Shown here: one piece after another, positions 1-55,323 of the stretch
How positions within the stretch are numbered: position 1 is the stretch's first letter
Layout: each line of letters starts with the position of its first letter
Source: Cucumis sativus
Taxonomy: Eukaryota > Streptophyta > Magnoliopsida > Cucurbitales > Cucurbitaceae
DNA length: 64,000 nucleotides
Reading direction: 5' to 3'
Assembly (NCBI RefSeq): GCF_000004075.3
Contig: NC_026660.2
Coordinates: forward strand, 18,557,837 to 18,621,836
The notes under the pieces: model-generated
Told to the model about the DNA's origin: nothing
Databases searched by the model: none
The model's input: only the letters and a program-made list of their open reading frames with translations
Made by a program: the position numbers and the translations under genes

Positions 1-18
1 CCCTTATGCTGACTATAG

Positions 19-3000
19 CTTTGGAAATCTTATATTAAAAAGCCAATGGTAATTGTTGGACCAAGCCTTGGTGCTGCTGTTGCTATTGATTTTGCTGTCA
101 ATTATCCAGAAGCTGTATGTATCTACCAGCTGGAATTTATGACTACAAATTTGAAGTTATATCCTCATGTAAAGTCATTCCAGAGAGTCTTCCGTCCAAT
201 ATAACGAGATTATTTCAGGTCGATAGGCTTGTGTTGATTGATGCAAGTGTATATGCAGAAGGTACAGGAAACTTAGCTACCTTACCAAGATCGATTGCCT
301 ATGCTGGGGTGAGACTTTGCTTACTTCTGTGAACATTACATCAAGTGTGCCAATGCTAAGCACATTTGATGAGAGATTGATTTTATGCAATTACAATTTA
401 CAAAACCACAAAATTTACTTCATCTGTACATCCTTTCCCATCCATTTTACCATACCATTATTGCATCACCACATGCTTTCATGATAATTCTTCTGCTAAA
501 ATCTTCTGGGAGAGAATCGTTCTACTAATTTTTTATCTACAAATTTGATTTTTTGCAAAGAAATTGACAGTTTCTAGGGGGGAAGATTTTTACACTTGTT
601 TCTTTTCTGAAAAATCGTCTTGGAGACACTTCTTATGTTTGCTGATTTCTATGTAAGTCATAAGTTTTTTAAACTTTTTTATCAGGTATTTTTATTGAAG
701 AGCATTCCTTTGCGCGTATATGTGAATGTTTTGACCTTCACTGGTATACCATTTAGTACCAGCCTGGATTGGGCCAATGTAAGTTTTCCCCGACATTAAG
801 GTGCATGTTTATCATGTAGTTGTTGACTTGATGTGTATTTTGTGATATTGGAAGTTTTGCTTGACATGAAGATAAAATGTCATGTCCATAACCAATTGAC
901 TTACATCCTGCTTCGACTGTTCTCCTTCTACTCTACTTATATTTTATTAGATTGGCCGCCTGCATTGTTTATTACCTTGGTGGGAGGATGCGACTGTTAG
1001 TTTTATGTTAAGTGGGGGATATAAAGTCAGCAGCCAGATTGAAAAGGTTAGCACAACTCTTTTGCAATATGGTTGTTGGAAAATGCAAAATGTATCTTGT
1101 TTTTTGAATTAGAAAATTGCAAATATATTGGTGATCATAAGGAAAAGTTTCCATTCCTCGTCAAGTTATGTAGGCGTTTTCATCAAGGGTTGTTGGAATG
1201 TTTTTTTGTTCTAAGGTCATTTTCATATTGTTCATTCGACAATTATCATATCGACATTTGAGAATCATTAGGTACTTCTGAGAGTTACGTGCATTTTGGT
1301 TCAACAGGTGAAGCAGAAAACGCTTATTATATGGGGTGAGGATGATCAAATCATCAGCTACAAGCTTGGAGTGGTTAGTGTTGTAATTTAGAATTCAGAA
1401 ACGTATATGTCTTATTCTCATTGAGTCAAAGCAATGTTACATATTTATATAGAGAATAAACTAAACCCTAGAGACTAAGTAAAATTACAATAAAGGACAT
1501 ATGTATATATATATATATATCATAACACTCCCCCTCAAGCTGGAGCAAATATGTCGATCATGCCCAGCTTGTTGCACAGATAGCTTATCCTTGTTCCATT
1601 TAAAGCTTTAGTTAGAATATCTCCCAATTGTTCTCCGGTCTTCACATATCCTGTGGACACCAACCCATCTTGGATTTTCTCACGAATGAAGTGACAATCC
1701 ACCTCAATATGTTTAGTTCTTTCATGAAATACTGGATTAGATGCAATATGAAGTGCAGCTTGATTATCACACCATAATTTAGCTGGCACGGTAATACTGA
1801 AGCCTATCTCAGATAATAGTTGGTGAATCCATACTATTTCACACACAGATTGTGCCATAGCTCTATATTCTGACTCAGCACTCGAACGAGAAACAACATT
1901 TTGTTTCTTACTCTTCCATGAAACTAAGTTTCCACCTACAAAAACACAATATCCAGAAGTCGATCTCCTATCCTCACGAGACCCCGCCCAATCAGCATCA
2001 GAAAAACATTCAACTCTCGTATGTCCATGATCTTTGTATAGGATCCCACGTCCAGGAGCAGCTTTTAGATAACACAAAATCTGCTCTACTGCAGCCCAAT
2101 GATCCACTGTAGGGGAAGACATGAATTGACTTACAACACTTACAGAATATGCAATGTCTGGTCGAGTCACTGTTAAGTAGTTCAACTTCCCAACTAATCT
2201 CCTATATCTCTCAGGATCTTTACATAATTCTCCTTCTTTAACAAGTTGCTGATTTGGCATCATTGGAGTGCCACTTGGTTTGGCGCCTAATTTTCCTGTT
2301 TCAGACAACAAATCAAGTACATATTTTCGTTGAGACAAATAAATACCTTTCTTGCTTCTCATCACTTCAATGCCCAAAAAATATTTCAATTGGCCCAAAT
2401 CTTTTGTATAAAACTGACCCTGAAGGAAAGTTTTGAGAGACGAAATACCCAATACATCATTTCCAGTAATAACAATATCATCAACATATACAACTAGTAG
2501 AACTATACCCTTCTCAGATCGGCGATAGAAAACTGAATGATCAGATGTACTCTTCTTCATACCAAAGCATACAAGGGCTTGACTAAACTTACCAAACCAC
2601 GCACGAGGACTCTGTTTCAAACCATACAGAGATTTTCGAAGGCGACATACTTTATCACTCTCCCCCTGAGCAACAAACCCTGGTGGTTGTTCCATATAAA
2701 CTTCCTCTTGAAGATCACCGTGAAGAAAAGCATTCTTAATGTCAAGTTGATGCAACGACCATTTATTGGTAGCAGCCATGGAAAGAAATAGGCGAATGGA
2801 AGTTAACTTGGCAACCGGAGAGAATGTATCTGAATAATCAGTGCCATAGATTTGAGCATAACCTTTGGCAACAAGGCGAGCCTTTAAACGAGCCACTGTT
2901 CCATCAGGATTCATCTTGACAGCAAACACCCATTTACAACCAATGGCCTTCTTTCCTGCAGGACGAGATACCAAATCCCAAGTACCATTATCATCTAAAG

Positions 3001-6000
3001 CAGTCATCTCCTCAATCATTGCATTTTGCCAGCCAGGATGAGACAAAGCTTCATGAACAGAGTTAGGAATAGATGTGGACTCAAGAGACGTAATAAACGC
3101 ATATGTGGAGGGAGATAACTGGTGATAGGAAATAAAGGAAGAAACGGGGTAAGTACACTTGCGTTTACCTTTGCGAAGAGCAATGGGAAGATCATCACTT
3201 GGCGCTGGATCACATGATGAAGGAAGCATTGATGGAGGACATGAGTCTGAAGGTTGTGGTGGAGGTCGTCGGGAGTAGACTTGAGAAATCAACGGGCGGG
3301 AAGGAGACACATCAGTAGACAAGGATGGTGTGGGAGAGGTAACCTCATATATAAAAAGATTGTCATCCTCCCCCTGACACAAACTCGATGGTGATGAAGT
3401 AAAGGGTGTATCTTCAAAAAAGACAACATCAGGCGAAACCAGATACCTTTTAAGGGTAGGACAATAACAACGATAACCCTTTTGAACACGTGAATAACCC
3501 AAGAAGATACACTTCAAGGATTTGGGATCTAACTTAGTATGATGAGGACGAACGTCACGAACAAAACAGACACAACCAAATATCTTAGGAGCAATAGGAA
3601 ACAAATGCTTGGTAGGAAAAAGAACACGATAGGGAATCTCACCATTAAGAACAGAGGAAGGCATTCTATTAATCAAAAAACAAGCTGTAGAGACAGCATC
3701 AACCCAAAAGATTTTTGAAACATGCATTTGAAACGATAAAGCACGGGCAGTTTCAAGTAAATGCCTATTTTTCCGCTCTGCAACACCATTTTGAGATGGA
3801 GTGTCAGCACAGGAAGATTGATGAATAATGCCATTTTCACACAAGTAAGAGCCAAGAGAATGAGAAAAATATTCACCCGCATTATCAGTACGCAAAGTTT
3901 TGATAGAGACATTAAATTGGTTTTTTATTTCAGTATGAAAGGCACAAAAATGAGATAATAACTCAGAACGATTTTTCATTAAATATAACCAAGTTAGACG
4001 AGAATGATCGTCAACAAAAGTAACAAAATAACGAAAGCCTGTTTGAGATACAACTGGACACGGACCCCAAATATCAGAATGAACTAACTCAAATGGAGCA
4101 ATTGCTCGTTTATCGACTCGAGGACTCGAACTAAGACGATGAAATTTCGCAAATTGACACGAATCACAATTTAAAGAGGACAAAGACCTAAATTCTGGAT
4201 AAAGTTTCTTCAACACAAACAAAGATGGATGACCTAAACGACAATGGACTTCAAAAGGAGAGGGAACGACAGGACACGCCACAGCTTGCGATACTTGATG
4301 ATCAAAGAGATAAAGGCCTCCTGACTCATATCCTCTACCAATAATCTTCTTCGTCACACGATCCTGAAACAAGCAATAACCAGAAAAGAACATGACAACA
4401 CAATTTAGGTCATGAGTAAGTTGACTAGTAGAAATTAAATTAAAGGATAAGTTAGGCAAATGTAACACAGAAGAGAGAGAAAAGGATGGGGTAAGGTGAA
4501 TAGTGCCAGAGCCAAGAACAGAAGATGTGGAGCCATCGGCCAATGTAACAGATGGGAAAGGGGCAGGGGACAACGGTCTAGAAAATAGGTGAGAATTACC
4601 TGTCATATGAGCTGTGGCACCAGAGTCTATGACCCATTTGGTAGATGATGTAAGAAGACACTTTATATTACCTGGGGCAACAGTGGATGCAATCGGAGTA
4701 GAGGAAGATGACGCTTGTAATGACTCTTGGTAATTCTGAAACTTAGCAAACTCATCTGCAGAAATAGTAACTGACGCCTCTGGTATATCGCATGTGGAGG
4801 CTATCTGAGCATGTTGAGATCGTTGACTATTCTTATATAGCAATTTCCGACAATCACGTTTCATATGGCCTGGCTTACGACAGTAGTTACAAACAATCTC
4901 TACAGACTCTGGTTTTCGATGATCAGTACTATTCCTCTGAGGTGCCCGAGGGTTATTGTTCTTGCTAAAGAGAGCACTACTGGGTTGAGGAATAGACACA
5001 CTAGTCGGAGAGCTTTCAATGCGAAGGACTCGAGTGAAGGCATCATCTAATGATGGAATCTTGGAGTCAGAGAGAATCTGTGTCTTTGCCATTCCAAATT
5101 CAGGTAAGAGTCCATTCAGAAAAATCATAACAGCCATCTTCTCTCGTTGAACTTGTTGAACTTTAACATCAGGACTAAAAGGTAACAACAAGCCAAGCTC
5201 GGCAATGATCTTCTTAAGCCGCATAAAGTAGCTGGTGACAGACTCAGCTTTCTGTTCCGCACGAAAAAATTGCATACAAACTTCAAACATTCTATGCACT
5301 TGCTCTTTACCTGAGTATAGAAAATCCAAAAATTCCAAAAGTTCTTTAACAGACTCACAGTGATCAACCAATCCAATTATCTCACTCTCAATTGAATTCT
5401 TGATCTGAAGATATAAACGGGCATCATCACGAAGCCAATCCTTCTTCTGCTTTGCATCTTTTGGGGGATCTTCAGTCATATGATCATCCATATCAGTACT
5501 TCTCAAATAAAATAAAATTGTCCGACGCCAATCGTAATAATTGGATCCATTTAACTTATGTTCTGTGATCTTAGAGGCCAAGGGAATAACGTTGGAGACT
5601 ACCAAATTTTTTATGTCGGCCATATTGAAGTCACACGTTGATTGTAGTCCACTCGAACAAAGAGAAAATCAATCCAAACAGCTGCAAAATTGGAAAAAGA
5701 GACAAAACCAATCGTGTAACCTTCGGTTTTCGTCAAACCCGAATGTTATTTGATAGACCCAATGGTACAGACTGGCAGGAAACAATGGTTCGAGACAAGC
5801 CCAGAAGACAGAAGACAAATCGGACTTCTCACGCGCTCTCACGCGCCGGCGCGTGGGTGAAGGTGACGATGATTCCGGCGGCGCGTGAAGGTCACGCGCG
5901 GTGTTTTCCGGCGATCGGCGAAGACAGACTTGGGCGGACGGAGGTGGTGCTTCTTATGGTATGGGCGGTGTCGACAAATGGTCACCGGAAGGTAACCCAA

Positions 6001-6595
6001 ACTCCAAACCTAATGGAGGTTGACAAATGGTCACCGGAAGGTAACCCAAACTCCAAACCTAATGGAGAGCTCTGATACCATGTAATTTAGAATTCAGAAA
6101 CGTATATGTCTTATTCTCATTGAGTCAAAGCAATGTTACATATTTATATAGAGAATAAACTAAACCCTAGAGACTAAGTAAAATTACAATAAAGGACATA
6201 TGTATATATATATATATATATCATAACAAGTGTTATTGTAATTCTGAAAAATGAGACTTGGATAGAAATTGAATTGGGTTGACAGAACAGACTGACAAAC
6301 CCCTTGAAACTAAGTAATTGAAACAAAATAGAGATTGAATGTGAAATACTTTGTTGTCTTTTGTCTTTTGAATTGAAACATATATAATAATATTGTTACA
6401 AATAGAATAACTTCTCATTAGTTGAAATATGCAATGCAGAGGTTGCACTGTGAGTTGCCAAATGCAGTTATTCGTCCAATAGCCGAATGCGGGCACCTTC
6501 CTCATGTTGAGAAGCCAAATCTTGTTGCCAAATTGATTACACAATTTGTTCATGAAGATTCCAGAAAAGAGGTTCAGTTTGTTAACAGTGAATAA
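19..6595 (+). CDS. alpha/beta-hydrolase family protein, 3' part (5' end outside window)
   Basis: Six exons are visible: 19..114, 219..308, 686..778, 951..1046, 1308..1373 and 6440..6595 (stop TAA). All introns are phase 0 with GT-AG ends, giving 198 residues of the C-terminal part. The fold is recognised from the nucleophile elbow GPSLG (visible residues 14-18), the acid-region motif WGEDDQ and the final histidine motif CGHLPH, the usual Ser-Asp-His set of alpha/beta hydrolases. A basic/hydrophobic start (LWKSYIKKPMVIVG) precedes the elbow, as in the family's strand before the nucleophile. The substrate cannot be told from sequence; many plant relatives are chloroplast or cytosolic esterase-like proteins. 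The last intron (1374..6439) contains a complete Ty1-copia element in antisense; without it the intron would be about 215 bp. The open reading frame itself is undamaged. Confidence 0.88.
1382..1527 (-). repeat. 3' LTR of the copia element
   Basis: 146-bp terminal repeat starting TGTAATTTAG and ending CATAACA on the plus strand (TG...CA). It contains a (TA)n run near one end. The adjoining bases 1528..1538 read as the purine tract TTGAGGGGGAG on the minus strand, which is the usual primer for plus-strand synthesis. The LTR begins 8 bp after the donor of the host exon 1308..1373. Confidence 0.95.
5973..6068 (-). repeat. Tandem 49-bp repeat in the copia leader
   Basis: Two near-identical copies (5973..6021 and 6022..6068) begin GACAAATGGTCACCGG on the plus strand and sit between the primer-binding site and the coding frame. 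They lie in the untranslated leader, close to where packaging or dimerisation signals would be expected; a role is only a guess. Confidence 0.85.
6069..6080 (-). other. Primer-binding site of the copia element
   Basis: Directly beside the 5' LTR the minus strand reads TGGTATCAGAGC, the common copia primer-binding sequence complementary to the 3' end of initiator tRNA-Met. Confidence 0.92.
6081..6228 (-). repeat. 5' LTR of the copia element
   Basis: 148-bp terminal repeat, identical by eye to the other LTR except for one more TA unit in the internal TA run. Followed by the right copy of the AGTGT target duplication at 6229..6233. LTRs under 150 bp are at the short end for plant copia elements. 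Confidence 0.95.
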
Positions 6596-7108
6596 TTCTT
6601 CTTTGCACATGCTTACATTTTCTTCATTTTATTAACGAATTTGCTTCACCCTGCTCATGGATTTTCAACCCTGACGTGTGTTCTTCTGAGGGCTGGAAGG
6701 TGCTCTACATGTTTGAAATCCAATAAAATATGACGTCGTCAATATAAACCCAAACAAAAAATCTGCTCTTGCTTGTTTCCTTTTCCTTATGATGGTGGAA
6801 ATAAACCCCTCCCTCGAAATCAAGACAAGTAATCCTAAGTTGATGGATACATATATCTTCGATCAAGAAGTTCTATCCGTCTATGTTATTAGGTAAATAA
6901 TATTCTGTCCATTAGAATGGTGCACTGTATTGGGGAAAGGAACCAGATGATCTCATTTTGATTCTCGGATTGTTGTGGTCTTGGTGGGGCCTTGGTCTTT
7001 CGAAATTGATGTTCCTTCTTCATTGGATCTTTTATCCTAAGTTTATGGTAAAGTTTTATGGACCAATTTTGAATTATGGGATTTTTTTCACTTTTTTTTA
7101 GAAAATAA
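6596..7108. other. Intergenic, 3' flank of the hydrolase gene
   Basis: Contains the presumed 3' UTR of the hydrolase gene and ordinary AT-rich DNA, with no open frame or structure that I can support. Confidence 0.5.
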
Positions 7109-7993
7109 GGGTCCGTTTGGTAACGTTCCAGTTTATGTTCACTTTTTAAGAAATAGAAGTGTTTGGTAACGTTTTCTGTTTCTTGTTCTAAAAAAAATAT
7201 AAACGTTTATCATTTTATAAAGAATTATTGGGAACAAAAAAAGTAGTGTCACCCGTTTCCGTTTTTCAATTATTTCTATTGGTTTTTTTTTCTCAATTAT
7301 TTCTATTGGTTTTCTTTTCTTTTTTTCAATTCTTTTTATTGATTTTCTTTTCTTTTTTCTCAGGTTTCATTTTCCTTTCCAATTTTTTTTCTATTTCATT
7401 TCCATTTTCCATTTTTCTTTTGTGATTTCTTTTTTCTTACTCTTATTTTCATCTTCTTTCCCAAATAACCACTTGCCTTTTTCTTCATTTTATTTCCATT
7501 GTCTTTTTCAAATAATCATCATCTTCCTCTTCCTCTCATTGCCTTTGATGTCTTCCTCTTCCTCTCATCATCTTCCTCTACACGACGCATTCTTCTTCGT
7601 TGGATTTGGGTTTTTCTCTTCCTCTTTGGGTGAATTGTGTTTTCGTCGAATTTGTGGGTTTTTGTCAGATATGTGTCTTAATTGTGAGTTTTTGTCTTCC
7701 TCTTTGTCTTGGGTTTTAGTCCTCTTCATCGTGAGTTTTCGTCTTCCTCTCGTCGACTATGTTCTTCATATCTCAATCTTCATCTCATTCACCATAAGAT
7801 TACAAGAAGACCTTCTCTAAGTTTGATAATCTTATGTTTTATGTTTAATGGATGACATATATTAATCACACACATTTTCTATTTCTATTTCTTTTTTAAG
7901 GAAACCTAAACCTTAAACAGTTATCAAACACATTCATGTTTCTTATTCTTAAAAAAGAAGGAACAGGGAACAAGAACGTTACCAAATGGGCTC
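7109..7993. mobile_element. Tourist-like (PIF/Harbinger type) non-autonomous element
   Basis: The left end reads GGGTCCGTTTGGTAACGTTC and the right end, read on the other strand, GAGCCCATTTGGTAACGTTC, so the terminal inverted repeats agree at about 17 of 20 positions. The trinucleotide TAA flanks both ends (7106..7108 and 7994..7996), the 3-bp target duplication expected of PIF/Harbinger elements. The 885-bp interior is pyrimidine-rich (TTTTCTTTTC and TCTTCCTCTT words) and carries no transposase. It is therefore a deletion derivative or MITE-like copy. The family is assigned from the ends only. Confidence 0.8.
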
Positions 7994-7996
7994 TAA

Positions 7997-9579
7997 AATA
8001 TTTCACATTTTAGCTTCGATGTTTAGATTGATAAAGATGGTAGTTAATTGGTATTAGATAGTTCAATATCATTATTAACTTCTTAAAAATAAATGGACCA
8101 ATTGGTTAACTTGAAAGAATAACATACCTATACCTCTTCTAATAAAGTTGGAGATTTGGATGGCTGTAGAGGACTAAGTTTGTCAATGAATTCTATTATA
8201 AGTTTGTGTTAAATAATTTTAAGTATAATCGAGTTCATTCATAAAGTTATACATTTATTAAGAAATACATCTCTCTCCATTATTTTTTTTTTCTTTATAG
8301 AACCCTAAACATACCAACTCAATCATAGCATAATAGCATTGACCAAAAGTCATAGGGAAAAAAAAATAGTGATTAGACTACACCTAATCTCAATATTCTT
8401 TTATCCAAAGTAAAAATGTAAGTAAAAAAGTTTTTACTTTTTCTATAACGAAAGGTGATGGTCGGCAAATTGTTGAGATGGAAACCTTACTAACCACACA
8501 CAATTATATAATATATTAAAAATGATAAATATTACTAACACACAATTATGTAATATATTAAAAATGAATGATTTATTCCTTTGTAAATGATAAAATTATT
8601 AAAAAAATATTTATAAAATATAGGAAAGTTTCATATTTTATAAATGATAAAAATAAACTTTTATCACTGTTAATATCATATTGATGATATTGCTGATGTT
8701 TGTTCTAGTTTATTGTAAATAGAATGTTAAATTTGCATTCCAACCAAAAATTAAGTCAAATGTGTTTTATTTTTCTCCAATGACTATTTTCTTTCTTTAG
8801 TTAAATAGATTAGTGAAATTGCTTTTTTTCCATCTTGTCAGATTGAATTAATTAAGATTCCAAAAACATTTTTCAAAATTAAAGTTTCACTGGCCAATAT
8901 GAGTTTATAAAAAATTGTTGTCATACAACATTTACTCATTAAATTCTGGGCATGAGTCTATATAGCAATCAAACAAATAGTTGGTAGGTAGTTCATTAGT
9001 CTATTCACCACACCAAATGTCAAGTGTTGTTTGGATGAGTTTAAAAAACTCAAAATTCTTTTAAAGATTTATATACATAACCTCATTATTAAAGTTGGGT
9101 ATCATGTGTTTTCATTCCATTTCTTGTCCCACCCATGTTGTCATCCATTCACCTCATAAATATGGACCTTATATAAATCTTAAAACTATATTTACCATAA
9201 TCAAATTCCCATAAACTACTTACTTAGAGCATATTGAGTAACACAACTCATACGACTTTATTATTAAATGAAGAAATTAATAATGAACAAAAGAGCAGAA
9301 TAATTGATTAGTGGGTACAAAGTCCCATTAAATTAAGGAAAATACAGCCTCTATTAGATACACAAAAGTGAAAAATATCTAAGAGGATCAGGTTCCATTC
9401 TAGTAGAAAAATCATACCACCACTCAATAAGGAATCAAATTCTCCACCCTTTTCTTCTTCTTTTCTTTTTCTTTTTTCCTTTCCACAGCAAAGGACATTA
9501 GAAAACAACCTTCCTAGCTTTTCCTTCCATCCATCCATTCATCCAAACAAATCAACTAATGGCCTCCATCATGGTTAAC
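7997..9579. other. AT-rich intergenic DNA and 3' flank of the X8-GPI gene
   Basis: No gene is supported. It holds a 42-bp tandem duplication (8497..8578) and simple A/T runs. The part just before 9580 is the presumed 3' UTR of the minus-strand X8-GPI gene. Confidence 0.5.
8497..8578. repeat. 42-bp tandem duplication
   Basis: The segment starting CACACAATTATATAATATAT is repeated once, 42 bp downstream, as CACACAATTATGTAATATAT, with few differences. Confidence 0.8.
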
Positions 9580-11485
9580 CTAACAGAACATTGACAACCA
9601 AAATGTCACAGTAGCTGTGAAGAAGAACAAGTTAGAGGCTGCTGCATTGAGACCTGCAGCAGCACTGCCATCCATACTGTTCCCGCCCAGACCGACACCG
9701 CCTGTTGGGCTTATCCCATTCCCGAACACTGAAGGGGAGGTTGTGCCAGGAGTTGTTGTCGACGGTGGTGTTGTTGATGGGTTTGTTGTGGTTCCTGGTG
9801 TCGTGCCGGGAATGGTGGTTGATGGAGTGGTTGATGGGGTGGTGCTAGTCGGGGTACCTGTAAAACTGAAAAGAAAGGGAAAGGAAAAAAGAAATGAGTG
9901 TTTGAAAATTATCGATTGACATGAAAGCTTAAGTTAACTGGTGACAATAAATTTAATATTATATCAACACTTTCAACACCTCTCTCACATGTTGAGCTTA
10001 GTGATTTGTAGAAGGTGATACAAGTGAAAATATCATTGTAGGGGTTTGAACACAAGACAAGTGTGTAACAATAGAGCTATTATCTTGGAGAAAGAAGAGG
10101 ACAGAGATGACAAAGAAAAACCATATCAACATCAGACAGCTTGTATTCTTAGTCTAGCAAGTTGCAACAGTTAGAAGAAGCGGTTTTAGACATTATCGAT
10201 GATATTAATAGATCATATCTACGGTTTAGAAACTGTGAGAGGGAGACTGCAAAACTAAAAGTTAATTTGTTAACAGATTCTACCCATAAGATAATTTTCA
10301 TCCAAAGTAATATATTACAAAAACATTTTCAACAATTGTAACTTTCCAAGGGGAAAAGATATTCAATAAAGCCAAGCTTGATCATTGAGAAAGAAGGGGA
10401 AGGGAATTGGATTCTTGATAGATTTTTTTTTTTTACTTTCTTTTCTTTTCTTACATCAAGCAGAAGATTCTCACCAACACCAACTCGAAAAGTAAAAAAA
10501 AAAAAAAAAAAAAAAAGACAACTTTGGGTTAAAAAAAGTCATTGGAATATGCCACTTTGAGAAACAAATTCTCAGTAAAAAAAAATGGAGATATTTGAGG
10601 ATTGTTTAAGAGACCAGTGCTTTACTTTTCCTTAAACCTTTTCAAATTTCAACTCATCCAAAACATTGATTCTCAGGTAGTCTTTGTTTCTTATTAAACA
10701 AAATATTCAACTCAAGCCCACTTTCCATTTTGAACATTGTTGAACAGAAAAACACAATCTAAAAAGTTGAATGTGAGATCAATTCTTCAAAAACTGAAAG
10801 AGAGTGAAGAAATTGAAATGGGTACCTGGGACTGGAAGGATAAACACACCCAGAAGCTACGGCTGTAAAAGAAAAAACACAAGAAAAACAAGAAAAGACC
10901 CAAAAGAAATGGTAAGTAACAAAAAAAAGAACCAATTGATGAAGAAGATGAGTAAAAATGGAAAATAAAAATCTAATACCAGGAGGAGATTGGCTAGGCG
11001 AGGCAGTGCCTGAAAAATCACAACTCCCTTGAACCTGACCCTTTCTTTGAAAATAGCTATTAACAGCATAACTGCAATGATCTTTCACAGTATTGGGTTG
11101 ATAACAAGGGCCATTTTGAAGGATTGGTGTACAATCAGCTCCAGCTCCACAAGCATAATCCAAACTTTTCTGAAGGGCTTGATCACTCAGTCCATCTTTA
11201 CAAATGCAATAAGTAGCACCTAAACAAGATTCCAGAAAAAGGGTTCATCAGATTTTTTTAAAAAAAAATTAACCCAACAGCTTATTTTCTAATTTCCACT
11301 GATTTCTTGAAAACCCTTCAGAGGGTTTCAACGATTCTTGTGTAAAACCTCATTTTAAGCTGCAGAAAAACTTCAAATGGAAGCCAGTAAACAAAACCAA
11401 GAAATGAAAATGAAGATTCCAGAAGCTTACTTGAATGGGAAGTGAAGGCCAAGAATATCAGATAACAGAGCAAGAGAACCGCCAT
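9580..11485 (-). CDS. X8-domain GPI-anchored protein, plasmodesmata callose-binding (PDCB) type
   Basis: Four coding exons, read from high to low: 11485..11431, 11219..10980, 10862..10826 and 9865..9580 (205 aa). Phases 1, 1 and 0/2 match exactly. Residues 1-17 (start MAVLLLCYLIFLAF) form a signal peptide. The X8 domain follows (TYCICKDGLSDQALQKSLDY to QGSCDFSGTA), with cysteines in the family's pattern and the hallmark ACGAGADC and NGPCYQPN. Next comes a Thr/Pro/Ser-rich linker and a hydrophobic C-terminus (NLFFFTATVTFWLSMFC) preceded by small residues, typical of a GPI signal. X8 domains bind callose (1,3-beta-glucan); PDCB proteins sit at the neck of plasmodesmata and limit cell-to-cell movement. 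The third exon is only 37 nt. The exact PDCB number cannot be assigned. Confidence 0.93.
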
Positions 11486-14400
11486 GGTTGAGGAAAGATT
11501 CTGAGAGAGTACAGATGAGAGAAGAGAAGAATTGTGGATTTAAGAGAAGTGGCAAAACCGGAAAAAAGAGAGAGAAAGAAAAAGAGAATTATGGGACAAT
11601 GGAGATTTCTAGTGAGGAAGAGAATGTAGAGGGCGGTGCCAGTGTGTCTCTATTCACCTTTTTTTTTCTCTCTTCTATCCTACTTTTTCAGTTATGATAT
11701 TTCTAGATAATTTTATACTTCCAAAAGTTAAAACATTATTTGTTTCAACAATGAACTATTTTGGGTTAAAAGAGTATAAAATTTTGCTTACTTTGGACTC
11801 TGAAGCCAAAAATTTTAGGATTTCAATTCATGGGTATGAGATTTGAGAAAGTTATTGCTATTATTATTATGATATATGTTTTGGGTAATGATTGAACCAA
11901 AGAAAATGAGTCTTATAAAGTTGGGGTTTTGATTATTTTGATTGATGATTAAGAGAGGAAGGTTTGGATTTGGATCATTATCACCCATTAGTGAAAGGGA
12001 AGAGAAGCTTAGGTATAAATAAGGATGCAGCCAAAATGATCAAGGTGGCAAAAATTGACAGCAAAAGTTTGAAATTTGGGGTTGCTTTGTAGTTACTTTA
12101 CTTTTCTTGAGAGGTGGTTGAAGTGATGAATGGAATGTGGAATTTGATATTCTCTAGGGATTGTGAACACACACATAACAACATAACTCTAAGATGCTTT
12201 GTAATTTGTACTTGTTATATGTACTAAAGTGAGTATATTGAATTACATATCTATATATAAATCTTCCTAACTCATTCCTATAAAATATTGTTTGAAACAT
12301 ATCTATATTTTGAAGGACGAATATTTATCAATTTGATCTCTTACGATGGATTCAAATATAGTAACCATGCTAAATAATATAAAATACTCACACACTCTAT
12401 AATGGATTTCAATAATGCCTCGAAATCTTGAAAAGATTTATTTTTTCCCATTGAACTTTGTGTTTAAAAAAGCTCTCGGTTCGTTAAAATAAAATCAAAA
12501 TTAATACAACGATTACTATGTGAAAATTGATTTTGTATGTGAATTTATGTTCCATTGTCACAAAGCATAGGACCATAAATTTAAATCCTTCATTCTTACC
12601 GATCTTATGATTACTAAGACATTTGCATGTCAATTAGAATATCATTATAGAGTATTGAGTTTAGGAAGATGTTTAATCAATAAATAATAGTATTTAGTAT
12701 AAATGTATGTAACTCAACTGACATAAATCTTAGTATTTTAGTCGTAGATTCTCTCATCTTACCTATCGTAAAAATGAATAGTAGTATTTACAAGACACAC
12801 AAAAGATATTTTTATAAGTTATCAAGATGAACATGATTCAACTAGCATACGTAATATATTATAAATTTATTAACGAGTATATAATACTTTAATCGGTTCT
12901 TTGTTCAATAATGTACAAATATTTTAACTCTAGGTCAAGAGTTTATGTTCACAGTAGTTGAGTTGTATTTAGGTCGGATGATATTTTAAAAGTTAAATAT
13001 ATATTTTTTTAAAATATAATTAAGTTGTTTATATTTATATCCAAATTGCAATTGTCTTAAAAGAATTAGACTAATTTAGATCTATTTGATGTCTTAGTAG
13101 GAGGATGAGAATGATTTTATTTTTTAAATAGTTCGAAATAATTTTGTAGTGTTTAAAATTTGTTTAAACAAAATTATGCTTTTAACTTATAAAAATTTAA
13201 TTTTAATTATGGTTTGAAAATAATGTTGAGAGGTGTAAAATCAAATATTATATTGATTTTGAAAATTATTAAAACCGTATTTGAATTATGTTATATAATT
13301 ATTGATTTGAACTATTTTCAATCAACAAACGACTATTGCAATTTTTTTAATTTTAAAATTGACTACGCAAATGAGATATATTTTGTATAATACTCACGAG
13401 TTACAAATGAGATAAATGATCTGTTGGCTCGAACCACTTTATTTTATGATAATTTTAGGTTGTTTTGGTTTCAATTCTTCTTCTAACTTAAAATATGGCT
13501 ATGGATTACGTTTGTCGTATTATTAATGTGATGCTGATTAGTTTGCAATAAATTGTTTATTTTAAACTAAATAATAATAAAAAAAAAAGGCTTAGATCCC
13601 AGCAATGGACGGTATGCTTCATTTCACATTCCAATAATTATTACGTGGAAGAAGAAGGATTTGATTTTTTTTGTCATAAAATAAAAACGATAGGATGTTT
13701 TTTTTATTTACTTAAATACAAAAAGAAAAAAAGAGTTTACATGTTCGAGAGAAATAAATAATTTACTTAAATACGAAAGAAAAATAGGAAGAATAAAGAT
13801 ATTTTTAAATATGACAAAATAAATTAAAATGTTTATAAAATATAACAAATTTCAAAATTTATCAATAAAATATACTAACGACAAACATCGATAGAAATTG
13901 ATAAAAATTTTATCAATAAATTTTGTTATCACCAATTTTATCATTTATAATAACTTTTTAAATTGTTATTAACCATGGTGATTATCTATCATTTTCTATT
14001 TACTAAAAGGGTGATTAATTTTCAAATTTATTTCAATGTTTTATTTGTACTAAATAAGTGACATTATTCATTTGTTAAAGTTGTATAAATGAAGGAGCGA
14101 CCATTTGGACTTAAATATATATATGTTTTAATGGTGCATTAAAATTTATTTGGCTTAGATGAAACTTTGCATGAATTTGGGTGCTCCGACTATTTTTCGA
14201 AAAACAAAATGCAATGTAATTAAACCATAGTTTATGATAAAAATTGTTACGAGCTAGTCTGGGAGTGAAAAGCTGGTCCATATTTTACTTATTGGAAGAT
14301 GTGATAATAAAATGTTAAAATTGGAAGAGTAGAAGCTTTTGATAAAAGCCATATATGCAAAATAAAATAGTTCGGATTTTAAGAGAATGTCACGTGTCAT

Positions 14401-25811: not shown

Positions 25812-28607
25812 TCATTTGCCTTGCTGGGCCTGCTTATTCATTTCATTAAATAATCAAACATTACTTTATACTTTATTCAACTTTCAAAAAATCTTAAAAA
25901 GAAAAAGAAAAAATTGGTTTTAGTGGCTTACCTCAGGTTCAGCAGGTTTGGATTCCTCAGCTTTGAAGTTTTCGTCACCTGTTGAAGTTGTTCGTTTGTG
26001 TATCAGAACTTTATTGGAGGAAGCCGGTAAGGAAAAAAAAATTTGAATTACGTTTATAAATACTACTTTCATTTATAGATGTATAGTAACCTGAATAAGA
26101 ACTTTATAGGAAAAGGCAGTAAAAAAGTTTTGAGTAAAAGCTTGATATTTTGAAAAACCTTTGTAAAAAAAAAAAGTTGAGTTTGTTTTTAGAATTTGAC
26201 TAAAGAATTCAAATAAGCATAAATTACAAAATCAGGAAATTAGCGATAGATTCAAACATGAAATAAGATATTATTTAGAATCAATTGTGAGATTATACCG
26301 CCATCTTCAGGCAAATCGGAGGTCCAGAGGGTGAGATTGTCTCTCAACAGCTGCATGATCAGAGTGCTGTCCTTGTATGATTCCTCACTCAAGGTATCCA
26401 ACTCTGCAATTGCCTCATCAAAAGCTTGTTTAGCCAAATGGCAAGCTCTGCAAGAGAAAAGAAAATGGCATAACATTACAAGGGTGAAGGGTTTTCAATG
26501 GCAGTATAAGAACTGAAAACTAGTAGGATTCTATTGACAATACCTCTCAGGAGAATTCATAATCTCATAGTAGAAGACAGAAAAGTTGAGGGCAAGGCCA
26601 AGACGGATTGGGTGGGTTGATGGGAGTTCGGTATTAGCAGTGCCTGATGCAGCCTGTTACAAAAATGGCATTAGAACCTCAAACAATTGCAAAGGAGGCT
26701 ATTGTTCTTTATATTTATGATGTGAAACTTGAATGTTATAAAGAAAATAAATGCCTCATATCCCTTCAACGACTGATCAGCAGCCTCTTTTCTATCTTGA
26801 TCTGTCTTGAACTCAGCAAGATAACGATAGTAGTCACCTTTCCTGAAATCATGGATGCCATGGCAGTAACTACACCATACTAAGACTGGCTAAAACACAT
26901 TAGGATCAAATTGTACGCATGACTAACTCATATTATAAGAAAAGGGATGGACAAGAAAATAATTAGATCAACCATATTCTTATCAACCTAGCTATGGCCT
27001 ATCTGATAGATTTTGAGAATGAACAGAACATATATCCCCAGCATTGGGGCGTGCGAAGCCTCCTGTGATGTACTTAGGTGGAATCAAAGGCTACCGATAT
27101 TCAAAAAAGAAACATAGGAAAACAGAAATTCATCAGTATCAAATTTGCACCATTTGGATTAGAATTATAACAAAAATTATTTAGCCAATGATGAAAAGTA
27201 CGCAGAGCATCAAAATTGGGATTGGTTGCAAGTACCAAAAAAAAAAAAAAGAAACTCACATCTTGTAGTAGAAAACAGTGGCTTCTGCAGAGGATGAATG
27301 AGGGACTAGATGCTTGTCAATGATAGAGAGAATATCACCACAAATCTTTGTAAGCTCCTCCTCCACTTTTTGGCGGTAACCCTTTATCAATTTTACAATG
27401 TTCTCATTCCCCTTAGACTCCTCTTTCTGCTCAATCGAAGACATGATGCGCCAAGAGGCTCGTCGTGCACCTATGACATTTTTGTACCCCACAGAAAGAA
27501 GGTTCCTCTCCTCTACAGTTAGTTCGAGGTCAAGTTTTGCAATATTCTTCATACACTCAACCATTTCTGCATCATTGGACTAATCAATCAAACTCCGTAA
27601 AGAAAAACCTTCACCACACAGATATGGAACATCCTCCAATGACTCAACAAAACAACAAGGAATTAAATTAATATCGAGAACCTAACATAGGCAGGTTACT
27701 GTAAGGTCCAGTAACTGATAACTTCTCATTTCTCAAACGCAAAAGCGGCACACACAAAAGTTGAAATCCTAATGAATCAAGATTGCAACTACAAACTCAA
27801 CATGAAAAGCAATGCCAAAGCCTACAAGAACCTAGAAAACAACAACAATTTCCCGTTCACATTCCAAAACAGAATCATTATCCAAAACAAAACAACAGAT
27901 CATTGGCAAATAAATCATCATTTCAACTACAAATTCAACATGAAAAGCAATGCTAAAACCTAAAAAAATCGAAAAAATAATTTCCGTCAACACTTCCAAA
28001 AGCAAAATCATAATCTATGCAAAACAACAGATCATCAGTGTAAATCAGCATTTCAACCACAAATTCGACATGAAAATCAATGCCAAAACCTTAAGAAGGA
28101 GAGAGAGAGGCTAGAAAAGAACCTCCACAAGTTCCCGTCCACATTTCCAAAAACAAAATCGTAATCCAAAACAACAGATCATTACCAACATCAATCAGCA
28201 TTTCGACTACCAATTCAACACGAAAAGAAATACCAAAACCTAAAAGAACCTAGAAAACAACATCAACAATTTCCATCCACATTTCCAAAAACGAAATCAT
28301 ACAACAGAGAATTAGCAATATTAATCACCATTTCAACCACAAACTCAACATAAAAAGCACCACCGAAACAAAAAATATATATATATATATACAGAGAACG
28401 TAGAAAACAAGATCATAAAGCAAAGCAAAACAAAACAACAGATCATTAGCCATATCCTGATCAAAGGAAAGAAACAATGCAGCAGAAAAAAAAGAAAAGG
28501 AGCAATAGTGATGGTGGAGGCATGTGTGTACCGTCATAGCGTTCGGCCTGCTCGGCGAGTTTGGCCATGTAAACCTGGGTCTCTCTTTCCTTCTCGGCGG
28601 AAGACAT
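25812..28607 (-). CDS. 14-3-3 protein
   Basis: Seven exons from high to low: 28607..28532, 27566..27260, 26842..26755, 26653..26544, 26447..26299, 25978..25932 and 25829..25812, 264 aa, all phases consistent. 14-3-3 proteins are dimeric cytosolic/nuclear adaptors that bind phosphoserine/threonine motifs. Signature one is [20 protein letters not shown]. The second is spread over [11 protein letters not shown] and [20 protein letters not shown]. Groove residues Lys (SVGYKN), Arg (GARRASWR) and RY (YYRYLAEF) are present, and DNLTLWTSD ends the core. Two points are unusual. The intron after KGYE must use a GC donor (GAG|GCATTT) to give the family sequence KGYEAASGTAN. The last coding exon is only 18 nt (AQQGK then stop), placed by splice signals and phase, so the very C-terminus is less certain. 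Reading on past exon 6 instead would end VSH. Confidence 0.93.
27780..28455. repeat. Minisatellite of about 130-150 bp units in 14-3-3 intron 1
   Basis: Five degenerate copies, anchored by CAACTACAAATTCAACATGA-like words at 27786, 27924, 28054, 28204 and 28334 (spacings 138, 130, 150, 130). Each is followed by AAAACCTAAAAGAACCTAGA-like, TTCC(C/A)GTCCACATTTCCAAAA-like and CAACAGATCATTA-like segments. It fills most of the 965-bp first intron. The last copy holds a (TA)n run. Confidence 0.88.
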
Positions 28608-50699: not shown

Positions 50700-52379
50700 T
50701 CAATTGATAACAAAATTTGAGATCTGTTATTGATAAATATGAATCGTTGTTTATTAGTGATATTGATAAATATAAAGTCTATTAGTGTTTATCATTGATA
50801 AAACGTAAAATTTTGTTATACTTCATAAATAATTTTAACAGTTTTGCAGTTTTCCATTTTTTAAAAATATCCATCAATTTTAAATCAAACCCTTCATAAA
50901 AAGAAAAAATAATCAAACTTTCAATTCGTATCAATTTAAACTTTATACTAAAAATTCTAAATTTTTGTAATTTATTTTGAGGATTTAAATTGATATAGTT
51001 ATTCGTTGAAAGTTTAATTGATATAGATAAAAGAATAGTATCAATAATAATAAATTAAAAGTGTGTAAAAAATTAAAAAAGAAAGAAAAGAATAGAAAGT
51101 ATATTATTTTAGTAATTAAATGATTTTTTTTTAAAAAAGGGAGAGTGTAATAAATAAATAATTGGAGTATCTTGGGAGACTGCGTGCTAGGTACGAGTAC
51201 ACCACTCTCTCCACTCTCATTTCTTCCTTCCTTCCCTCTTAACTCCCAGGTTCCCCTCAGATCCCATCGTCGCCGGAAGGTTTGCTCCTCAAATTCATTC
51301 CTTGTCTCTTAGATCTTCTCTTTATCTTTCTGTTTTCCTCTTTTTAATCCACAATCTACCTTTGTTTTCCCCCCCATTTTCTTCTTCCTTCATCATCTAC
51401 CATTGTTTTATCGCATTCCTTCTCTAGATCTACTACTTGATTCATTCTCTTTGGATTTTCCTGTTTCTCCTTCCGGGTACCTCTCAATTGCTGAAACTAT
51501 CAGATCTTGTTTCTTTCGCATCTTTGATTTTGTTCTTTTCTGACTGTGCTTAAGGGTTTTGCAGGATCTGTGGTATATGCCTACATTTTAACTGTTTCTT
51601 ACTTTTTGGTCAAGTGATCGGTTTTTGAGATGGGTTTTTACGCTAGAACTTAGTACTCAGCTCAGCTGGGATATTCTTCTTGTGTTCCTGTGTGGGTTTT
51701 TTACTGTAAACAAATTAAATCAAATCACACCACTGTATGGGATTAGTATAACTGGTTGTTTTGTTTTGAAATTGATGCTATTGTTAATGGCTTCATGTGT
51801 CTTGTGTTCCGTTTTTCAATGTCTTGTTTGTCTTGGTATAATCTTTTTGTTTGGAGATCTATTGCTCTTACTATATCTTCTTTAATTTCATCACGACAGC
51901 TTTAGGCCTTGTCAGTATCTTCTTCATTTAGGTTGGGATTTATTTATTTATTTATTCAGCTGGCAGTCTTTACCACAGAAACAGGTCTTGTGGCTAGTTT
52001 TTCCAATATATATATATTATACCATCGTAAAAGAATATTATTATTATCTCAGACCTAACTGTTGAAAGTATGAGTCGTTAGATACCAAAGTTAGAAAAAC
52101 CCATGAACTGTTACGACTAAGGGAATTAACATGAAAACATGGATCAAGTGTGATGTTCAAACATCAAGTTTGATGTTTTATTATAGTAGAGGCTTGAGTT
52201 TTACATTTTAACTCGAGATTTCTTTGGATACTTGATAGGACTATTTGCAATATATGAGATCCTTCAGCCATCGATTTTCACTCATTTATGTTCTCAGTCT
52301 TCTGATCTTTATTATTATTCTTTTTCCTGGTTGTAAGGCAAGCTTCTGAGTTGTGACATTTCAAAGAAACCGAAGTGCC
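50700..52379 (+). other. Promoter, leader and probable leader intron of the SPIRAL1-like gene
   Basis: 50705..50880 has AT-rich words (CTATTAGTG, TTATCATTGATAAA, AAATTTTGTTATA) like the inverted-repeat element at 37.9 kb. From about 51200 a pyrimidine-rich leader begins (CTCTCCACTCTC, CTTCCTTCC). A likely leader intron runs from the donor after GCCGGAAG (near 51280) to an acceptor just before TTCTGAGTTGTGACA (near 52340). Confidence 0.55.
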
Positions 52380-53113: not shown

Positions 53114-54105
53114 AACCTGCAAATCAGAACTAAATAGAGCTATTTGACGATCCATTTTATGTGAATTTTTATATCGTGTCGAAGGGGCAATGTTTTTTTT
53201 TCTTCTTTTCTTCCATCTGAAACGATACTATGGCAGGACGATATGCTTTTCGATGTAATGTGTAGATGCTTATGGTTTCTGCTCTCTGTTCTTGGGTTTG
53301 ATTCAGTCAAAATTTTATTTTGGATTCATGAAAAGCTGTTGTGAGCTATCCGTGTCTGTCAAGGATCTTTCTTACAAGTAATGCATAAACTCTCTTTTAT
53401 CTTCATGGTCTTCTATTTCTATTCAGATTAGCTCCATTTCTTCAAACTCCAAATGACTTCTTAATCTAAAAGGCAGAAACATAGATTGAACTTTTCTTCA
53501 TTCTTTCTTCTTAAACTAATTGGTTTTGTGAAGTTGTTGGATTTATCAACAATATCTTGAATGGAATTTAGTATAACGGATCAAAATGTACATTAAATTA
53601 CATCATCGGAAAAAGAAAAAAAACTCACAAGTTTCAATTTTTACATTTATAGAAATTTAAAAAAATTACTTAAAATTTGTAATTGGAAAATTCATAATTT
53701 TATAATCTTTTTACACATTATGTAAGTAATTATTTTTAATTTGGAAAGCTACTATTACTTGAATTTTGCAAATCAATCATAATTAAGATAGTTCTATAAA
53801 ACTAATTGTAATCATTTTATCAAAACATTGTCAATTACTATAATGTTTTACATATAAACCTAATATCACACAATTTGTAATCTTTTCTAACTATTTAAGT
53901 AATGATTTAAGGTCACGTCTACCTCTTTATAAACGTAATCCATTGATCATAACCTAAAAGGATTACTATTATTGTTACTATAACAATACAAAAAATTATG
54001 AATGTCACATTTACCACTATCGTTATCATTAGGGTCTAACTAAACAGAATTACAGAAATTATTATTTGTTTAAATCAAAAATTAATTTGTGCACTATCAA
54101 AGGAA
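53114..54105. other. 3' UTR of SPIRAL1-like gene and spacer
   Basis: The first 250 bp or so are the presumed 3' UTR. The rest is AT-rich DNA with nothing recognisable before the tRNA gene. Confidence 0.45.
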
Positions 54106-54177
54106 GTCGTTGTAGTATAGTGGTAAGTATTCCCGCCTGTCACGCGGGTGACCCGGGTTCGATCCCCGGCAACGGCG
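54106..54177 (+). tRNA. tRNA-Asp (anticodon GTC)
   Basis: Identical by eye over all 72 nt to the minus-strand copy at 50628..50699, including discriminator G. CAA lies just upstream (CTATCAAAGGAA) and TTTT runs follow within 15 nt (CGTTTTAATTTTTT), fitting Pol III start and stop signals. Both genes look functional. Confidence 0.97.
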
Positions 54178-55323
54178 TCGTTTTAATTTTTTGTTTTCTA
54201 CGTGTCTTTTAATTACGATTAAATTAAATAAGAAAGTGAAAGTATATTTTTAGTCTTTGGATATAGTTTTGATTTGGTTCATATATTTTAAATTTTATTT
54301 TTCAATTTTCAGATTCTGAGTTTAGATTTAATTTACTTCTTTTGTTTTAAAAGATTTTTTTTTTTTTGAGTTAAGGTTTATTAATTAATTTTAAAGATTT
54401 AAAAATATAATAATTAAAATTAAAATCTCAATTGGTTATTTTTAAAGATAATGTAATATTGAAACTATTTACATATTTTGTAAATAATTTTTATTTTTAT
54501 TTTTGGTATTCCTAACAATTGTCATTTTTCGTAATTATTTTTAGTATTCCATATTTTTCTCTATTTATGTTTATTGTATATTATCCTTTATAATAATTAT
54601 AAATTCCCTTAAATCTCGCCTATTTTCCTTTATATACCAAACACAAGAAAAATGGTGCAATGTGGCATATGTTTTCCCATCAATTTAAAAGATGTCTTTA
54701 TCACACATACATCAAACTTGCCTGCTCTTTCCTTACAGATTTAAAAGAAAAATGTCTTTATCATAAGTCAAATCATAAACATTACAAATATAAAGTTGTT
54801 TTCTTTATCCTTGATTCAATTTTTGCATTCAAATATAGTCTCAATTCAAATATAGTAGTAGTCGTAGAACTTTAACTAGTTGTTTGAGATAAAAGAATAG
54901 AGTTATAAAATCATAAATCCATAATAAAAGAAGTTAATAAAATATATAATCGGATGTTTCTTTTAGTTTTGAAGTCGAAATCCAAAAACTCTTTAGACTA
55001 AAGAAAGAAAGAAATTCATTTCTAACTTCAAATTTTCAAATTTCAATAAATAAATGAAAGAGAGAAAACAACCGCCGGCAAATTAACTCTTTTGTAAACT
55101 ATTCAATGAAGGGCACAATAAAATTAACAAAAGCTACCCATGTTATTGATCTCAATTCAATGTTTGGGAAGAGAAGGATACACAAAATAAATAACAAGCA
55201 ACATTCTTCTAAGCCTTAAATTATACTGAAGGGGAAAAAATATGGCATAAGTAATAAGAAAACTAGCAAAAGACTCATCAAATCTATTGCATCCAAATGT
55301 GTTTCCCTTGTTCCTTACAAAAC
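54178..55323. other. AT-rich spacer and 3' flank of the RGP gene
   Basis: No gene supported. The last 250 bp are the presumed 3' UTR of the minus-strand RGP gene. Confidence 0.45.

Follow-up and report, generated by a model that had tools for sequence, protein, structure and literature searches.

The window analysed here, a stretch of 64,000 nucleotides from C6 of the cucumber (Cucumis sativus), begins within a gene on the + strand that encodes an alpha/beta hydrolase. Six exons of this gene lie in the window (its earlier exons lie upstream), all with lengths divisible by three, and their joined translation corresponds to the C-terminal portion of such an enzyme (Pfam Abhydrolase_6, E 1.9e-15). 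The exon at 19–114 (+), an open frame with a Pfam Abhydrolase match, carries the motif GPSLG and, like those at 219–308 (+), 686–778 (+) and 951–1046 (+), is in phase 0 with ag/gt borders; the latter two match a related hydrolase gene on C4 at 52% and 78% at the protein level, and the exon at 951–1046 is followed by the donor GTTAGC. The penultimate exon (1308–1373, +), recognized by its frame and by an exon of equal length in the C4 gene, encodes 22 amino acids and is followed by the donor GTTAGTGT (1374–1381), and the last exon (6440–6595, +), delimited by frame, borders and structure alignments, carries the motif CGH and the stop codon TAA. These last two exons, which a preliminary description of the locus had already named, are both in phase 0 and continue one another in a single hydrolase frame. 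Among the matches listed, solved hydrolases align without a gap across the last exon junction (three alignments), and their motifs align with GPSLG, GEDD and CGH, which we take to be the nucleophile, the acid and the histidine of a catalytic triad; the nucleophile serine is replaced by alanine in two of the three solved-hydrolase alignments listed. The CGH histidine, encoded in the last exon and therefore beyond the inserted element described below, is probably catalytic.

The last intron (1374–6439, +) measures 5,066 bp with this element and 214 bp without it. The element is a structurally complete Ty1/copia retrotransposon of 4,847 bp that lies antisense to the hydrolase gene, as follows from its long terminal repeats (LTRs), its primer-binding site, its polypurine tract and a frame holding gag, integrase and reverse transcriptase in copia order. 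Its 3' LTR (1382–1527, −; 146 bp) and 5' LTR (6081–6228, −; 148 bp) have TG...CA ends and differ solely in the length of a TA run, by one unit, and they are bordered by two copies of the target-site duplication AGTGT (1377–1381 and 6229–6233, +). The primer-binding site TGGTATCAGAGC (6069–6080, −), which presumably matches initiator Met tRNA, the usual plant primer site, adjoins the right LTR, and just after it the element's leader contains two 49-bp tandem units (5970–6067, −) that are 98% alike. At the other end a polypurine tract (1528–1545, −), containing TTGAGGGGGAG on the − strand, adjoins the left LTR. A single Gag-Pol frame of 1,377 amino acids (1535–5668, −) matches the Pfam models RVT_2, rve, Pol_BBD, gag_pre-integrs, Retrotran_gag_2 and SH3_retrovirus, with zf-CCHC scoring just under its curated cut-off, and the domain order is of the copia type, with rve (525–622) ahead of RVT_2 (894–1137). 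A chance pattern is excluded, since the paired LTRs, the exact duplication, the primer-binding site, the polypurine tract and the open reading frame all agree. The small size and short LTRs of the element would, we assume, fit the Ale lineage of Ty1/copia.

The Copia element beside the splice donor, as claimed in the preliminary description, is real: a base-by-base check of coordinates agrees with the donor GTTAGT at 1374–1379, with the 5-bp duplication that makes up donor bases +4 to +8, with an LTR starting at 1382 directly after base +8, and with the growth of the intron from about 215 bp to about 5.07 kb. Two further claims stand in part. The cut had been placed inside the extended donor consensus, and the break in one strand presumably fell between +3 and +4, but the insertion point itself lies between intron bases +8 and +9, just past the stretch that pairs with U1 (−3 to +8), which is unchanged because the insertion falls after +8. 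The duplication had also been credited with preserving the donor; the donor is indeed intact, but staggered integration and fill-in yield such a duplication in any LTR insertion, so that its keeping the donor is automatic, and we reject a special role for it. Nor does the proximity of the insertion to the donor need a special cause, because 16 of the 214 positions of the empty intron (7.5%) are no more than 8 bp from one of its ends. The effects on splicing efficiency or antisense transcription of the host gene that the description called likely, though unproven, are hypothetical. It makes no mention of the doubled locus, of the probable catalytic histidine that goes if the last exon is lost, or of the LTR-borne stop and AATAAA motifs on the host sense strand, all of which are treated below. 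The + strand of the window has 2,999 GT sites. Ranked by U1 pairing energy, the donor at 1374 (−7.1 kcal/mol) is among the best 2.6% of these, and 6.3% of them equal or exceed its plain U1 match count of 7/11; it falls inside the range of the hydrolase's four other donors in the window (−3.5 to −9.3 kcal/mol). Six + strand GT sites within the element equal or surpass its pairing with U1.

The related gene on C4 (C4:6775326–6796662) contains a 22-aa exon that ends in GTG before the donor GTGAGT, and its next exon begins with RLHCELPNAV, as in the C6 gene. The shared intron position in the C4 gene makes it very probable that the donor at 1374 is genuine, and it is, judged from the sequence, probably in use. 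The matching C4 intron is 3,625 bp long (1207–4831 of the C4 extract). Of six frames scanned in this region, including that of the last exon, three match RVT_1, Integrase_H2C2 and Retrotrans_gag, and one of the three also matches the PBP_like model; all of these matches are below the Pfam cut-off, and the reading of the intron content as Ty3/gypsy debris is therefore weak. The C4 intron probably holds weakly recognizable Ty3/gypsy-like debris from an independent insertion into the same intron. The later exons of the C4 gene are preceded, at a distance of about 20 kb, by two early ones; a counterpart of exon 219–308 is not among the matches to this gene, which may be hugely expanded or decayed. 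It is a speculative and very improbable extension that the last intron of this gene pair would be a repeatedly tolerated landing place, having independently received a young antisense Copia in the C6 gene and Ty3/gypsy-like sequence in the C4 gene, and that both genes may control their expression by having to splice out a heterochromatic intron in order to reach the exon of the active site.

The insertion appears recent, as the two LTRs show no substitution in 146 aligned bases. Under an alternative rate of 1.3e-8 substitutions per site and year, its age would be at most about 0.8 My at the 95% level; under the rate of 4.5e-9 per site and year used in PMC9456015, it would be at most about 2.3 My. 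A search of the genome (226.6 Mb in 88 contigs) with the LTR gave 227 candidates, and all of the 40 that were scored, including the element itself and its twin described below, showed 94–100% identity; the family is therefore large and young. In two other family copies whose right ends were read, the duplications share only 4 bases each, and one LTR end is shortened; among the copies read, a clean 5-bp duplication is thus found only at the hydrolase locus.

The locus is present twice in the assembly of C6. Positions 1–13362 of the window form the end of C6:18495968–18571198, one of two copies of a 75.2-kb stretch (the other being C6:18420288–18495467) that are 99.83% identical, and probably represent a contig overlap. 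The element and its donor accordingly recur 75.7 kb upstream (100% over 167 bases), as do both insertion flanks save for one base, with the element at the same base in both copies. Exactly 500 N lie exactly between the ends of the two copies, an arrangement that resembles two contig ends that overlap, and these are the only N among the 221,836 bases examined. The copies differ by 52 substitutions and 57 indels. Of the substitutions, 42 fall in the first 10 kb, eight in the element and two elsewhere; within window positions 1–13362, all eight substitutions fall in the multi-copy element (p ~0.0003 if evenly spread, in a post hoc test). Six other family copies were compared: both bases are present among them at site 1943, and both are present at site 2426 among the four whose alignment covers that site. 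From the first 10 kb, a 491-bp piece with five of the 42 substitutions occurs identically at 40 places, itself among them (40 scored of 91 candidates). Among the indels, 49 of 57 are of 1 bp; runs of at least two equal bases hold 42 of the 49, compared with 53% of all bases; window positions 1–13362 contain four 1-base indels, two in the element and two outside it (986 and 9407), and the difference at 986 falls, in the upstream copy, in a coding exon. The Chinese Long v3 cucumber assembly is reported to consist of PacBio contigs polished with Pilon (PMC6582320), and this pattern of substitutions and indels would be accounted for if short reads had polished the repeats unevenly. The doubled stretch most likely reflects two overlapping contigs that were left unmerged, and hence a false duplication, so that the "second" insertion is the same insertion; on the overlap evidence we rejected both a second independent insertion and a duplicated gene. 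Genome searches for a retrocopy or an empty site found none, either with the right flank (both of two candidates were the two overlap copies) or with the left flank (all three candidates were the two overlap copies and one exon of the C4 gene).

Two alternatives bear on whether the locus has been described correctly. The 75.2-kb pair could be a true, very recent tandem duplication at whose junction the assembly broke, giving two genes with the same element, and both the shared insertion base and the differences between the copies could be read in that way; we consider it very improbable, as the copies meet exactly at the 500-N gap, the substitutions of the window part are confined to a repeat, the 491-bp piece has its 40 identical places among the candidates scored, and the indels, including the one in the upstream coding exon, resemble long-read errors. 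It is more improbable still that the exon model is wrong and that no exon truly ends at position 1373, before the donor at 1374. This donor is imperfect, with T at +3 and T at −2, which such an error would accommodate, but the frame is continuous, the intron position is matched on C4, and the protein alignments over the junction (three listed) are ungapped.

We thus consider it likely that a recent antisense Ty1/copia insertion at +8/+9 has left the donor intact and the intron mostly still spliced, and that its upstream twin is a contig overlap. A recent element integrated antisense into the last hydrolase intron, between its bases +8 and +9, and the staggered cut and fill-in duplicated AGTGT, which is why the donor, with its full U1-pairing stretch as read in the sequence, is intact. 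The 5.07-kb intron, element included, would then most likely still be removed by splicing between the unchanged donor and the original acceptor, and some transcripts may be lost through 3'-end formation in an LTR, or through retention of the intron, which would deprive them of the last exon and of the histidine that is probably catalytic; the copy of the locus 75.7 kb upstream, judged from the assembly, is most likely the unmerged overlap of two contigs and would involve no second insertion. The main alternative concerns the balance between these fates, and holds that the insertion largely breaks the gene, either because transcripts end or are polyadenylated in an LTR or because the intron is retained; the resulting protein would lack the histidine that is probably catalytic. 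On the host sense strand each LTR carries two AATAAA motifs (1455, 1489, 6154 and 6188), but five further AATAAA occur elsewhere in the element, and the motif is a loose signal in plants. A retained filled intron would stop translation after five residues (stop at 1389–1391, inside the left LTR), but the empty intron, if retained, would also do so, after 18. In favor of disruption, an intronic Copia LTR is reported to cause termination in RPP7 (PMC7529245), and intronic LTR elements are reported to accompany lower expression in the cucurbit Gynostemma pentaphyllum (PMC9456015); against it, donor and acceptor are both intact here, and an intact antisense intronic Copia of 4.77 kb, the soybean RAC, is reported to be spliced out (PMC6712407). 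Taken together, we regard a largely broken gene as unlikely, and favor the reading of an intron that is mostly still spliced.

The soybean RAC, in the alpha-SNAP gene of rhg1-a, is the closest precedent found for the hydrolase insertion: it too has an uninterrupted polyprotein open reading frame, it separates exons 1 and 2 by about 5 kb instead of about 400 bp, and its splicing out was reported to leave no overt effect on transgene mRNA or protein (PMC6712407). It differs in lying in intron 1 rather than in the last intron, in that it is not known to lie at a splice site, and in that its expression was measured (PMC6712407). COPIA-R7, in intron 1 of Arabidopsis RPP7, is likewise an intronic Copia with an LTR usable as an early polyadenylation site, but in RPP7 the choice of polyadenylation site is reported to be governed by EDM2 and H3K9me2 (PMC7529245). 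The intronic LTR elements of cucurbits belong to the same class of event in the same plant family, although PMC9456015 is a genome-wide survey and is not known to mention this gene. In Arabidopsis, about 3% of transposable elements are reported to lie in gene bodies, mostly in introns (PMC4417168). The top-ranked results of a literature search included no publication on this hydrolase gene or on the insertion. The insertion was correctly read in the preliminary description, yet it is an ordinary plant genome event of a well-known kind. As a clean and young intronic retrotransposon located directly past the U1-pairing stretch, it could serve to test how far an insertion downstream of a splice site disturbs it. 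The locus also cautions that, through an unmerged contig overlap, a single insertion may appear as two in a reference assembly, and such overlaps could yield false gene duplicates.

Elsewhere in the window there are two genes for tRNA-Asp (GTC) in inverted orientation, at 50627–50709 (−) and 54095–54178 (+), which lie 3.4 kb apart and are 96% alike over an 84-bp alignment. Positions 27771–28359 hold a degenerate tandem array whose units measure about 130–140 bp.
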